A DNA stretch of 64,000 bases from Methanohalophilus levihalophilus (lineage in GTDB: Archaea; Halobacteriota; Methanosarcinia; Methanosarcinales; Methanosarcinaceae): positions 558,001 through 622,000 of the forward strand of contig NZ_JAGGLK010000002.1 of NCBI RefSeq assembly GCF_017874375.1, given 5' to 3'. Position numbers and translations under genes: made by a program. Positions 23,401 through 28,058 of this stretch are shown here, piece after piece; positions within the stretch are counted from its first letter, which is position 1, and the number at the start of each line of letters is the position of its first letter. The notes beneath the pieces are model-generated. The model ran no database searches. It was not told the origin of the DNA and worked only from the letters and a program-made list of their open reading frames with translations.

Positions 23401-24186
23401 TTACAACTTATTTATTTGTTCAGCCTTTTCTTTGTAGCTGTCAAAAAAACGCTCTCCCCACTTAATGGCACTGTCATCAAAACTCATTATTTTCTTGTGA
23501 TCGTATATTCCATTTTTGTTGAATAAACAGATGTATACGAACATATCTGTCACTGCAATGGTTGTGGCGATGTCATTTTTTAGAATGTAAAGTTTAGTGT
23601 TTTTTGAGTTTGCCATGGTATTTATTTCTTCATAGCATTCCTCTATCATCCGTTCATAGACCATTTCCGTGAAAATAAGATCCAGCTCAATACCTTTCTG
23701 TGAAATCTCGGAATATAATTTTGGATACAGGGGATGGAAATAGGATAGCATCGTCCTGACTTTGGCTGCTTTTCCCAAGTTCTCGGTGAATTCTTCGGGT
23801 AGGTCAAACAAATGATTGATATCTGGCTCAATTACCATACAATCGCCGAGTTCTCCCAGTTTTTGTGTAAGTCTGGATGGTATCGGGGAGAGATCTCTTG
23901 TGGCCCAGTATTCCGGATTTTCTTCAATTACTTCAAGGGTACTCAGAAGTGGGTTCATGTTATCGACTATGATTTTGCCAACTTCTGAAAGTGAAAATAC
24001 TCTGTCTTCTTCCAGTACAAGATCATTATCCATTAATATCTTGATTTGTGGCATCATTGCCTTGGAAGTAACATTAAGGGATTTTTTGATCTGATCCATG
24101 TCGCGTGGACCTTCCATCAACAGTAACAACAGGCGTTTCCTTTTTTCAGAAAGCCATATTGTATCACTCAGGGATGACCTCATCAA
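23401..24186 (-). CDS. Msr-type winged-helix regulator (DUF1724)
   Basis: 261 residues. The N-terminal ArsR-like winged helix ('SEKRKRLLLLLMEGPRDMDQ', 'IKKSLNVTSKAMMPQIKILM') is followed by the DUF1724 effector region. This architecture is that of the Msr proteins that control methyltransferase genes in Methanosarcina. 'DLSPIPSRLTQKLGELGDC' and 'RTMLSYFHPLYPKLYSEI' are typical family blocks. The gene is divergent from mtbC across 236 bases, so MtbC/MtbB control is the natural guess. An inverted repeat (24275-24292) lies between the two genes. Same-strand order Msr, kinase, response regulator suggests one signalling unit. Confidence 0.85.
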   Translation of the reverse strand: MMRSSLSDTIWLSEKRKRLLLLLMEGPRDMDQIKKSLNVTSKAMMPQIKILMDNDLVLEEDRVFSLSEVGKIIVDNMNPLLSTLEVIEENPEYWATRDLSPIPSRLTQKLGELGDCMVIEPDINHLFDLPEEFTENLGKAAKVRTMLSYFHPLYPKLYSEISQKGIELDLIFTEMVYERMIEECYEEINTMANSKNTKLYILKNDIATTIAVTDMFVYICLFNKNGIYDHKKIMSFDDSAIKWGERFFDSYKEKAEQINKL

Positions 24187-24274
24187 ATCACGGTTCCTAT
24201 AAGTCTGAGAGCTTTGTTTATTTTCCTTTCCCTCTGTAAATTCAATTTTTTAATCAAACAATAATAACCAATCC

Positions 24275-24292
24275 CTTTGGAATTTACCAAAG
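24275..24292. promoter_or_regulatory. Candidate activator site upstream of mtbC
   Basis: Perfect inverted repeat CTTTGG (24275-24280) and CCAAAG (24287-24292) with 6-base spacer AATTTA. Its centre is about 60 bases upstream of the mtbC TATA box, a position suited to an activator such as the adjacent Msr protein. Confidence 0.4.
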
Positions 24293-24338
24293 CAATTAGT
24301 CATTTCCCACGTCCTTAGTATATGCAATACGATTTGTG

Positions 24339-24347
24339 CTATATATG
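24339..24347 (+). promoter_or_regulatory. TATA box of the mtbC-mtbB operon
   Basis: CTATATATG at 24339-24347. Predicted start of transcription near 24370, which places a hairpin at the very 5' end of the message. Confidence 0.55.
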
Positions 24348-24370
24348 AATTACCACCTCTCGTTTTTAGT

Positions 24371-24408
24371 GATCTTTTCGAAGATCCGCTTCCAGTCGTA
24401 AATTGGAA
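24371..24408 (+). promoter_or_regulatory. Structured 5' leader of mtbC
   Basis: A perfect stem GATCTT (24371-24376) / AAGATC (24381-24386) closed by a TTCG tetraloop. A second potential stem follows, TTCCA (24390-24394) / TGGAA (24404-24408), ending beside the GGAGG ribosome site (24410-24414). The first may protect the 5' end of the transcript; the second could tune ribosome access. Confidence 0.45.
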
Positions 24409-24422
24409 AGGAGGTTGTAACT

Positions 24423-25061
24423 ACGGCAAACGAAGAATTATACAAAGAATTGACTGATGCAATCGTCAGTTGCAAGAAAGACGCTGTTTTAGCAGCTGTT
24501 GCAAAAGCACGTGGTACGTTAAGTGCACCAGACATAATTGAGAAAGGTCTGGCTGCTGGTATGAACGAGGTTGGTACACTTTTTGAGAGGGGTAAATTAT
24601 TCCTTCCACACGTCATGATGGCTGCAGAAGCCATGCAGGCTGGTGTAGATGAACTTCAGGATGAAATGGGAGAGGGAGCAGGCAGTGCAAAACTCGGTGT
24701 AATTGTAAATGGTACCGTCGAAGGCGACGTACACGACATAGGTAAATCTATTGTATCCACTATGCTTCAGACCGCCGGGTTTGAAGTTCATGACATTGGC
24801 CGTGATGCTCCTGTCAAGAATTTCATTGACAAGGCAAAGGAAGTTAACGCTAACATGGTCGGTATTTCCGCACTTATGACCACCACCCTTCAGGGCCAGA
24901 AAGAAGTTATCGAGGCTCTTAAGGAAGCAGGTCTGCGCGACAAGGTCAAGGTCATGGTCGGTGGCGCTCCAGCAACCAATGCATGGGCAAAGAAAATAGG
25001 TGCTGACTGCTATGCAGAAAACGCAAGCGATGCTGTCAACAAAGCAAAGGAACTTCTCTGA
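24423..25061 (+). CDS. mtbC: Dimethylamine corrinoid protein MtbC
   Basis: About 212 residues if translation starts at ACG 24423, matching the usual MtbC length. GGAGG at 24410-24414 lies eight bases before this ACG, and the residues after it ('ANEELYKELTDAIVSCKKDA') fit the family N-terminus. No ATG, GTG or TTG lies in frame upstream. The first standard start is TTG 24450, which has no suitably placed ribosome site and would remove nine residues. The helical cap (about 1-90) precedes the B12-binding domain with D-V-H-D-I-G (His104 as lower cobalt ligand). MtbC accepts the methyl group from dimethylamine via MtbB and passes it to the CoM methyltransferase. Confidence 0.93.
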   Translation, partial: TANEELYKELTDAIVSCKKDAVLAAVAKARGTLSAPDIIEKGLAAGMNEVGTLFERGKLFLPHVMMAAEAMQAGVDELQDEMGEGAGSAKLGVIVNGTVEGDVHDIGKSIVSTMLQTAGFEVHDIGRDAPVKNFIDKAKEVNANMVGISALMTTTLQGQKEVIEALKEAGLRDKVKVMVGGAPATNAWAKKIGADCYAENASDAVNKAKELL

Positions 25062-25072
25062 GGTGATTTGAA

Positions 25073-26476
25073 ATGGCAACAGAATACATGCTCAGGATGG
25101 GTGACGGTGAAAAGATCTTCATGACAAAGGAAGACATCCTCGCTGACATCCAGGAAGGTAGCGCTGACGCAGCAGATCTCGGAGACGTTGCAGCACTTAC
25201 CGATGACGAAATGGACAAGATGCTGTCCATCATTATCAACCCTAACAGGATTGTAGGTGTTGAACCCGGAATGGAAGTTCCAATGACCCACGACATTGGT
25301 TCCATCAGGATTGATGGTGACCAGGGTAACAGTGGTGTTGGTATCCCATCCAGCCGTCTTGTCGGCTGTCAGATGCACGAGAGAGCTTTTGGTGCAGACA
25401 CAATGGAACTTGGTCACATTGACTACAGTTACAAACCCGTCAAACCTGTTATTGCACAGGAACAGCAGACAATGGAAGTTTGCCAGATGAACATGGTAAT
25501 TCCTCTGCTCTATGGTGCTATGCCAAACCTTGGTCTTTATTATACTCCAGACGGTCCATTCACCAACCCAGGCGACCTCATGAAAGCATTCAAAATAGCA
25601 GAAGCCCGTGAATCCATCGAGAAAGCAGGCGACCACGCAACCCGTGACATCACATGGGTAATGCAGCGTCTCCAGGCTGTTGGTTGTGACGGTGTCAACT
25701 TTGACACAATCGGCGCAGCTGGTGATGGTGACTTCTACGCATCCCTCTACGCAATCAAGGCACTCAGGGAAGAATTCCCTGGTATCTACATTGAAGCCGG
25801 TATGGCTGGTGAATGTACCCTTGGTATGCACGGAGAACTCGAATACGAAGGAAAGATCCTTGCAGGTCTCTGGCCACATGAGCAGGTCCCACTCGCAGAA
25901 GAAGCTGGTGCAAACGTGTTCGGTCCAGTATGTAACACCAACACAAGCAAATCCGCTGCCTGGAACCTTGCACGTGCGGTAACTTTCACCAAAGCCTGTG
26001 TTGAGACAGCCAACATTCCATGTCATGTTGACATGGGTATGGGTGTCGGTGGTATCCCAATGTTTGAGACTCCACCAATCGATGCAGTAACCCGTGCAAG
26101 CAAGGCAATGGTCGAGATTGCCGGCGTTGACGGTATATAGATCGGAGTCGGCGACCCTGTAGGTATGCCGATTGCACACATCATGGCATCCGGTCTTACC
26201 GGTATGCGCGCAGCTGGTGACCTTGTTGCCAGGATGCAGTTCGACAGCAGCATGGAACTTGCCGATGCAAAAGACTATGTTGCCAAGAAGATCGGTGTTG
26301 ACAAAGCAGACCTTGCCAACGAGCACGTCATGAGGGAAGTTCGTGAAGAACTCGACATTGGTATTATTACCTCTGTCCCAGGCTGTGCAAAGGGTATCGC
26401 TGCCAAGATGAACATCGAGAAAGTTCTTGACATCGAAATCAACAGCTGCCAGAAATTCAGGGAAACTACTGAATAA
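25073..26476 (+). CDS. mtbB: Dimethylamine methyltransferase MtbB, with pyrrolysine at an in-frame TAG
   Basis: 467 residues when the amber codon TAG at 26138-26140 is read as pyrrolysine, residue 356, the position known for Pyl in MtbB. The flanking residues are 'IAGVDGI' and '[14 protein letters not shown]'; the frame continues without any other stop to TAA 26474-26476. A stop-obeying gene finder would split this gene into two. MtbB moves a methyl group from dimethylamine to MtbC, with Pyl activating the amine. ATG 25073 follows AGGTGATTTG, 11 bases after mtbC. Codon use is strongly biased toward a few codons, as expected for a highly expressed methanogenesis gene. Confidence 0.97.
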
Positions 26477-26530: not shown

Positions 26531-26567
26531 TTATTATATCTATAAAATATGGAGCGTGGTGTTAATT

Positions 26568-28058
26568 ATGAGCGATGAGAAACCAGAAGGTATAGACTGG
26601 CATCATGCAGAGCAGTGTGCCAAAGTGGTTTGTGAAACCGGTGAAGGCAGTGGTCTTGAACGTACCATTGACTGGAAACAAGGTCTTGCAATCGCTGTTG
26701 GTGTACCTCTGTTGATTATGCCATCAATTGGATATTTTGCAAGCTGGTTGTGGTCAGCTGCAATTATTGTATGGGGTCTTTCCGTATTCCAGGGATTCAT
26801 GCAGAACCTGGCTTATGGTGAGCTCGCAACAACTTTCCCGAATGCATCAGGTCTTCCGGGATTTGCACAAAACGTTTTCAAAACGCGTGATCATGTAGGA
26901 AAATATGATAAAGGTAAACTAATCGGTGGATTTAGCGCATGGAGCTACTGGTTCGCATGGAACCCTGTCCTTGCTATCTTCGCAATCCTTGTAGGTTTCT
27001 ACCTGCACAGCCTGTTCCCGTCAGTTGCTGCCAGTTTCACTGAATACCAGCTATCACTTATAGCAGGTGTCGTGATTTTCGGCGGTATGATTCTTGTCAA
27101 CTACCGTGGTCTTTCAAGTGGTGCAACAGTTGGTTACATTCTTGCAGCCTTCTCACTATTGCCTTTGATAATAATTACTCTTGCACCATATGCAACAGGT
27201 GACTTCGTAGCTGCTAACATTACAAACAACTGGTTGCCAGACACCTGGGTATGGAATACACATCATATTCTGATATTGCTCGGTATCTTCGCAATGGCAC
27301 AATGGAGCGCATGCGCATGGGAAACTGCTGCTATCTATGGTCCTGAATACAAGAACCCAGGTAGCGACGTACCAAAAGCACTCTTCTCCTGTGGTGCAAT
27401 TTGTCTCTTCGCATACGTTATTGTGCAGACCACAGTTACCGGTGTACTCGGTATCGATGGTATTGCTGCCGCACCAATTGACCCAATGCTTCCTGTTGCA
27501 CAGGCAGCTCTCGGTGACATTGGTTCAACAATTGCTGTTGTAATGCTCATTGCTGCTATGACATTGATCATCCAGACTGCATACCTTGGTTCCGCAAGGG
27601 CAATGCACTCAATGGCAACAGAAGGAAACCTTCCAAAGATTTTCGCAAATGTCAATGCTCATGGTACTCCTGTACTTGCAATGGTCTTTATTGGTCTTTT
27701 CAACCTTGGTCTCATTGCAATGGGTGGTGCCCCTGCAGCTATCCTCGCAGCATCAGCAATCGGATACGTTTGTGCAAACGGTATCAGCCTTTTCGCATAC
27801 GTAAAAGCAAAGATGAACCCACACCTTGCAGGTCTTGACAGGCCATTCAAAGCACCAGGTGGATGGAAGAATGTAGCTCTCCTATTCGGTCTGTTCAACA
27901 TCCCATTCTGTCTGATTGGTGTAATGTATCTCAACATCGTTGAAGGTAGTTTCATGACTACTGCTGTCGGTGTTGTCGTGCTTGCCCTGTACATCCCACT
28001 CTGGTTCTACTCCCAGCATGAAAGTTATGATGCTGAGGCAGCAGCCAGCGCACAGTGA
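26568..28058 (+). CDS. APC-family permease, probable methylamine transporter
   Basis: About 496 residues from ATG 26568; GTG 26556 would add four. Around twelve membrane spans are visible ('GLAIAVGVPLLIMPSIGYFA', 'YQLSLIAGVVIFGGMILVNY', 'TIAVVMLIAAMTLIIQTAYL', 'NVALLFGLFNIPFCLIGVMY'). The N-terminal cytoplasmic segment has 'DWHHAEQCAKVVCETGEGSG'. It resembles the amino acid/polyamine-type permeases found in methylamine methyltransferase operons of Methanosarcinaceae (MttP/MtmP group). Position directly after mtbCB argues for dimethylamine uptake. Codon bias matches mtbB. A terminator follows. Confidence 0.82.
   Translation: MSDEKPEGIDWHHAEQCAKVVCETGEGSGLERTIDWKQGLAIAVGVPLLIMPSIGYFASWLWSAAIIVWGLSVFQGFMQNLAYGELATTFPNASGLPGFAQNVFKTRDHVGKYDKGKLIGGFSAWSYWFAWNPVLAIFAILVGFYLHSLFPSVAASFTEYQLSLIAGVVIFGGMILVNYRGLSSGATVGYILAAFSLLPLIIITLAPYATGDFVAANITNNWLPDTWVWNTHHILILLGIFAMAQWSACAWETAAIYGPEYKNPGSDVPKALFSCGAICLFAYVIVQTTVTGVLGIDGIAAAPIDPMLPVAQAALGDIGSTIAVVMLIAAMTLIIQTAYLGSARAMHSMATEGNLPKIFANVNAHGTPVLAMVFIGLFNLGLIAMGGAPAAILAASAIGYVCANGISLFAYVKAKMNPHLAGLDRPFKAPGGWKNVALLFGLFNIPFCLIGVMYLNIVEGSFMTTAVGVVVLALYIPLWFYSQHESYDAEAAASAQ

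Follow-up and report, generated by a model that had tools for sequence, protein, structure and literature searches.

A probable ACG start codon of mtbC in Methanohalophilus levihalophilus and near-cognate start codons in its relatives

The mtbC operon and its start region

The window, meaning the whole stretch of 64,000 nucleotides of Methanohalophilus levihalophilus DNA that was analyzed, carries mtbC, mtbB and a permease gene in one operon on the + strand. Read from ACG, mtbC extends over 24423..25061 (+), with its stop codon at 25059-25061, and would encode a dimethylamine corrinoid protein of 212 residues including the initiator Met, a reading based on profile NF041607 and an AlphaFold2 model. 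The product was identified as MtbC by its NF041607 score of 386.6 bits, which exceeds the curated cut-off (350), and by its place in an operon with an amber-bearing mtbB. The latter gene (25073..26476, +) encodes dimethylamine methyltransferase, starts with ATG 15 nt downstream of mtbC, and matches TIGR02368 with 852.5 bits when TAG is read through; its in-frame amber (pyrrolysine) codon lies at 26138-26140. The permease gene (26556..28058, +) is next, with an NF053774-like product that scores 208.4 bits, under the cut-off of 690, and a gene order shared with relatives.

The genome has a second mtbC paralog, with 94% identity to the first, located between mttP and another mtbB; it scores 384.3 bits against NF041607 and also has ACG at its start. 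Upstream of this copy (L211:7510-7580) there is a conserved AAAATATATATAG block, likely the copy's own promoter. The same segment contains TGGATGTTGCCATCAATATCCATCA, which has inverted symmetry and is partly conserved in other species.

The start region of the first copy contains a Shine-Dalgarno (SD) core, GGAGG (24410..24414, +), within AAAGGAGG, followed by the 8-nt spacer TTGTAACT (24415..24422, +), which reads ttgtaac(t/a) in the two mtbC paralogs of Methanohalophilus as well as in many Methanococcoides copies. From the sequence and its relatives, the near-cognate codon ACG (24423..24425, +) is placed as the start, and the codons GCA AAC GAA GAA TTA come after it. Ahead of the ribosome-binding site, the reading frame of mtbC is closed by an in-frame TAA (24399..24401, +), no ATG, GTG or TTG is found in frame between this TAA and the ACG, and the first NTG is TTG (24450..24452, +), from which alone the list of open reading frames gives the mtbC frame. 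The first-pass annotation of the window had pointed from GGAGG through eight bases to ACG 24423 and had stated that no in-frame ATG, GTG or TTG precedes TTG 24450; both claims held when the sequence was re-read. Among 10 GGAGG-spaced candidates with frames of at least 100 codons in the 64-kb window, ACG 24423 alone was a near-cognate codon without an in-frame NTG upstream.

The leaders of Methanohalophilus mtbC genes diverge up to the SD; from the SD on, conservation extends over the spacer, the ACG and the coding sequence, and does so in both operons. ATT 24402 was considered as a start and set aside because it precedes the SD, in the region that is not conserved, and GTA 24417 was rejected as it is absent from Methanococcoides. 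A short ORF of 18 codons (24345-24401, from ATG 24345 to the TAA at 24399-24401) stops nine bases before the SD, and its ATG is not conserved in other Methanohalophilus leaders. For M. mazei, two small ORFs that are translated have been reported in the mtbC leader (PMC11549558). A search of positions 24000-25100 for RNA elements gave no Rfam matches, and predicted folding of the start region was no better than that of shuffled sequences (z -0.95 and -0.16).

Start codons of mtbC across the family

An mtbC match at the set threshold was found in 83 of 111 genomes of the family, and the matches listed were fetched. Among these were 158 distinct mtbC 5' regions, of which 154 were counted. The four left out were L130, with N over the start, L189, with ATA at the start position, and L031 and L032, which are distant and have ATG. 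Among the matches listed, the 154 copies have ACG in 31, ATT in 33 and ATG in 90, clustered by lineage and operon. The ATA of L189 (2980-3010, from a Methanohalobium MAG) stands after GGGGGGAG where relatives have ATG, and is possibly a third near-cognate start, seen in one row only.

ACG was found in all 10 complete Methanohalophilus copies (genus g1, five genomes) and in 21 of the 22 from Methanococcoides (g3) among the matches listed, so that the comparison with other strains proposed in the first-pass annotation finds the codon kept across both genera. A partial 5' copy (L198) from a sixth Methanohalophilus genome, that of strain RSK, has ACG too. In this strain mtbC is split over contig ends (L190, L198), probably through collapse of near-identical copies in assembly.

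The remaining near-cognate copies carry ATT. Genus g8, which we equate with Methanosarcina because it contains the M. mazei MM_1687 locus, has 23 ATT and 45 ATG copies among the matches listed, 23 of its 26 genomes having a single ATT copy; the three genomes without one are two incomplete assemblies (G124 and G126, 79% and 60% complete) and G125, which has N over one start. Also among the matches listed, ATT occurs in genus g11 (4 ATT, 10 ATG; in 4/4 genomes), in g2 (2 ATT, 2 ATG; in 2/2 genomes) and in 4 of the 24 copies of g5 (20 ATG), and genera g4, g6, g7 and g14 have ATG only. A near-cognate start of mtbC is thus a family-wide feature and not a one-off.

With ACG in 31 copies from two genera, both paralogs and several independent assemblies, a sequencing error or fresh one-base mutation of ATG, from which ACG is indeed a single base away, has a negligible chance of being correct. 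This disposes of the one-base reading put forward in the first-pass annotation, as independent genomes and both paralogs carry the ACG. Editing of the mRNA from C to U, in the style of plant organelles, could likewise restore AUG by a single base, and ACG-to-AUG editing has precedent in organelles (PMC9845219). Such editing is nevertheless very improbable here, since ATT occupies the same codon in four other genera, where a C-to-U change is beyond repairing it. The test of whether C-to-U editing would restore AUG in the relatives fails on these ATT copies. We know of no mRNA editing of the C-to-U kind in archaea.

A tree of mtbC was built without the first ten codons; its bootstrap is not settled and near-copies favour clustering. 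On it the ATT copies of g8, g11 and g2 fall in one group (33 rows, 29 ATT and 4 ATG; support 100/98), the ACG copies fall in Methanohalophilus and Methanococcoides groups, and the ATT copies of g5 lie elsewhere. The three start-codon labels require 10 changes on the tree against 57.5 in shuffles. In two genomes an ATT copy has, as its neighbour on the tree, an ATG copy from that very genome (L053/L022 and L073/L042). Concerted evolution of mtbC has been reported (PMC6053082), and the ATT/ATG neighbours in the tree fit homogenisation of gene bodies with each operon retaining its own start.

Gene order did not yield a single rule for the start codon. Within g5, ATT was found only in the order mtbC-mtbB-permease (4 of 7 copies) and in none of 15 mttP-mtbC-mtbB copies among the matches listed. 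ACG occurs in both operon orders in Methanohalophilus and Methanococcoides, and in G122 a copy arranged as mtbC-mttB starts with ATG, which led us to reject operon position as the determinant. Operon neighbourhoods were covered for 3 of the 29 ATT copies from g8, g11 and g2.

Neighbouring genes in 41 operon regions served as controls. In these regions mttC starts with ATG in 25/25, mtbB in 37 of 39 copies (the other 2 being read as GTG, and 2 of the ATG copies being without a recognised SD), and mttP with an NTG codon in 24/24. The trimethylamine permease gene mttP (e.g. L211:5940, L212:10051) uses TTG or GTG in 18/24 and has GGAGG or AGGAG in 24/24. Across the 41 regions a conserved non-NTG start of the kind known from infC was thus seen in mtbC and not in the adjacent mttC, mtbB and mttP.

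Ribosome-binding site, frame and N-terminus

Among the matches listed, GGAGG precedes the start in 64/64 ACG and ATT copies, compared to 28/90 ATG copies. In the near-cognate copies it lies 7 or 8 bases from the start; for L148 the GGAGG was read by eye from the sequence, the script having given GAGG. An in-frame NTG upstream is absent in 19/31 ACG and 25/33 ATT copies among the matches listed, and the ATT copies of g11 have an in-frame ATG five codons up that overlaps the SD. Downstream, 17/31 ACG copies among the matches listed have no further in-frame NTG until an ATG 46 codons past the start.

The third reading in the first-pass annotation, initiation at TTG 24450, would make the protein eight to nine residues shorter; it has in its favour that TTG is an accepted start codon and that NF041607 begins at that position. 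The boundary of this NCBIfam profile suggests that shortened proteins went into its construction or that it was cut back to match them. The TTG itself lacks an SD at a workable distance and is found at this position in 7/31 ACG copies among the matches listed, all of them Methanohalophilus, the others having CTG or CTA. It also lies inside a conserved predicted helix, so that a start there would cut most of helix 1 and residues conserved in all classes. We consider the shorter protein very unlikely.

The N-terminus read from ACG resembles that of the other classes. Residues 4-17 are alike in kind in ACG, ATT and ATG copies, and among the matches listed residue 2 is Ala, Ser or Thr in 31/31 ACG copies and Ser in 32/33 ATT copies, a small residue as expected if the initiator Met is removed. 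In the AlphaFold2 model the residues after the start have a mean pLDDT of 90.6, and predicted helix 1, with pLDDT of 89-96, spans residues 2-14 downstream of the start. Residue 1 of the solved MtmC1 structure 3ezx aligns to residue 1 of the MtbC of the window. The conservation of codons 2-13 in excess of what coding requires ranked 1/200 windows in ATT copies, 3/202 in ATG copies and 23/201 in ACG copies; it was rejected as a mark of poor starts, being high in ATG copies also and only at rank 23/201 in ACG copies.

The start of MM_1687 in Methanosarcina mazei

The ortholog MM_1687 (mtbC1) of M. mazei lies in the operon mtbC-mttB-mttC-mttP-mtbB and, unlike the gene in the window, has ATT instead of ACG. 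Its initiation site is reported to lie 138 nt upstream of the annotated start (PMC11549558, PMC11456600), and a reporter fused to the supposed MM_1687 leader ran larger, by about 46 residues (PMC11549558). The MM_1687 primers given there match locus L072 with 0 and 0 mismatches, and the next locus with 2 and 2. At L072 the first in-frame ATG follows the ATT by exactly 138 nt, placing the published site on the ATT to the nucleotide. Taking these reports together with the sequence, it appears that initiation at an ATT member of the set has, in effect, been observed, though this concerns ATT and not ACG. The Ribo-seq data fall short of codon resolution, according to their authors (PMC11456600). 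In the portions available, both papers treat the correction as an annotation error, and the codon and its conservation are not discussed there (PMC11549558, PMC11456600). Within the openly accessible literature we found no report of ACG or AUU starts of mtbC; we do not claim absence from print.

From its position, its conservation, the accompanying GGAGG, the loss of standard alternatives in most relatives and the ATT ortholog on the published site, ACG 24423 is very probably the codon at which translation of mtbC starts. The use of a rare ACG start, the first of the readings considered in the first-pass annotation, is supported by ACG in two genera and ATT in four more, all after GGAGG, and by the M. 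mazei site falling on the ATT of L072.

Possible reasons for keeping a poor start codon

In the mechanism we propose, the strong GGAGG would set the small subunit so that ACG sits in the P site. Initiator Met-tRNA would read the start with one mismatch, in the middle position for ACG and in the third for ATT, and the codon would be decoded as Met by near-cognate pairing. The Met would afterwards probably be removed, given an Ala, Ser or Thr in second place. A poor start behind a maximal ribosome-binding site could then act as a fixed throttle, giving one set, moderate MtbC output from a strongly induced transcript.

Such a throttle is the most likely role of the poor start, and we put it forward tentatively. 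It is favoured because the start has changed between two codons that differ by two substitutions, ACG and ATT, with ATG not appearing in those operons, and because mttC and mtbB use ATG while mttP uses TTG or GTG in 18/24, as if starts were graded within operons. Counting against it, control of the MM_1687 operon was judged to be at the transcript level (PMC11549558), and the Rfam and folding analyses found no special RNA structure at the mtbC start. In g11 and g2, moreover, the SD pairing energy is stronger in ATG than in ATT copies, for which reason a trade-off between SD and start codon does not hold everywhere. The synonymous conservation of codons 2-13, not being particular to poor starts, also speaks against the throttle, as does the chance that ACG by itself simply stayed unchanged.

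It may also be that the ACG start is real and a tolerated relic, a very strong SD making codon identity nearly irrelevant so that ACG and ATT drifted in. This is a real alternative to the throttle and quite possibly correct. A strong SD is always present in ACG and ATT copies, and ATG copies persist beside ATT in the same genomes. Across the 31 ACG rows, the mean number of changes at T/C twofold sites was 2.71, with 3/24 of them unchanged, and 9/73 fourfold sites are unchanged, so that an unchanged ACG alone is not extraordinary. Drift is harder to reconcile with the single C-to-T transition that would give ATG and is seen in 0/31 ACG copies among the matches listed, or with the third base of ATT, unchanged in 29 copies where only 3/73 fourfold sites are unchanged. 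Non-NTG starts also appear in several separate parts of the tree for mtbC, yet are absent from mttC, mtbB and mttP.

Beyond a fixed throttle, MtbC synthesis might be gated by how strictly archaeal initiation selects its start, through aIF1 or the supply of initiator tRNA, with a deliberately poor ACG or ATT, never ATG in those operons, standing behind a maximal SD. We regard this as an unlikely extension. If true, it would be an archaeal counterpart of infC control on a catabolic gene, one that stayed hidden because gene finders do not call ACG.

Comparison with known systems

The bacterial gene infC encodes IF3, a factor that discriminates against the very start codon of its own gene. Its AUU start reportedly limits its expression, as is attributed to work of Butler and of Brombach in 1987. 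The likeness to mtbC lies in a start other than ATG, GTG or TTG being kept in a particular gene: mtbC keeps its non-NTG start across species, with ACG in 31 copies and ATT in 33. The two differ in that the product of infC is an initiation factor controlling itself while MtbC is a corrinoid methyl carrier and not an autoregulated factor, and in that infC has AUU in bacteria whereas mtbC has ACG or ATT by lineage, in Archaea. By analogy, the start codon of mtbC may limit its expression, as reported for infC.

Conserved poor start codons have also been proposed to set protein level in chloroplasts, where the starts are those of an organelle, mostly GUG or UUG and sometimes edited ACG (PMC9845219); no common descent with mtbC is claimed. 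Within archaea, start-codon proofreading by aIF1 would be expected to disfavour both ACG and ATT, and mRNA binding with aIF1 depends on SD strength, as far as the available parts of the studies show (PMC6237735, PMC8211752). That work concerns Pyrococcus and Sulfolobus and model mRNAs, and a natural gene with an ACG start is not among the examples in those parts (PMC6237735, PMC8211752). The M. levihalophilus genome has one aIF1 (SUI1) gene.

Significance

Public MtbC annotations are likely too short, by 9 residues where a TTG is available and by about 46 elsewhere, as was the case for MM_1687 in M. mazei; reporter systems built on the MM_1687 leader would carry an unrecognised N-terminal extension. 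Work on start-codon selection in archaea has so far used model mRNAs. A natural gene in which ACG or ATT is kept across at least six genera offers a direct test of near-cognate reading in archaeal initiation, and also lets one ask whether near-cognate initiation serves control. A conserved near-cognate start in a methanogenesis gene resembles infC in kind, the gene here being a catabolic one of an archaeon.
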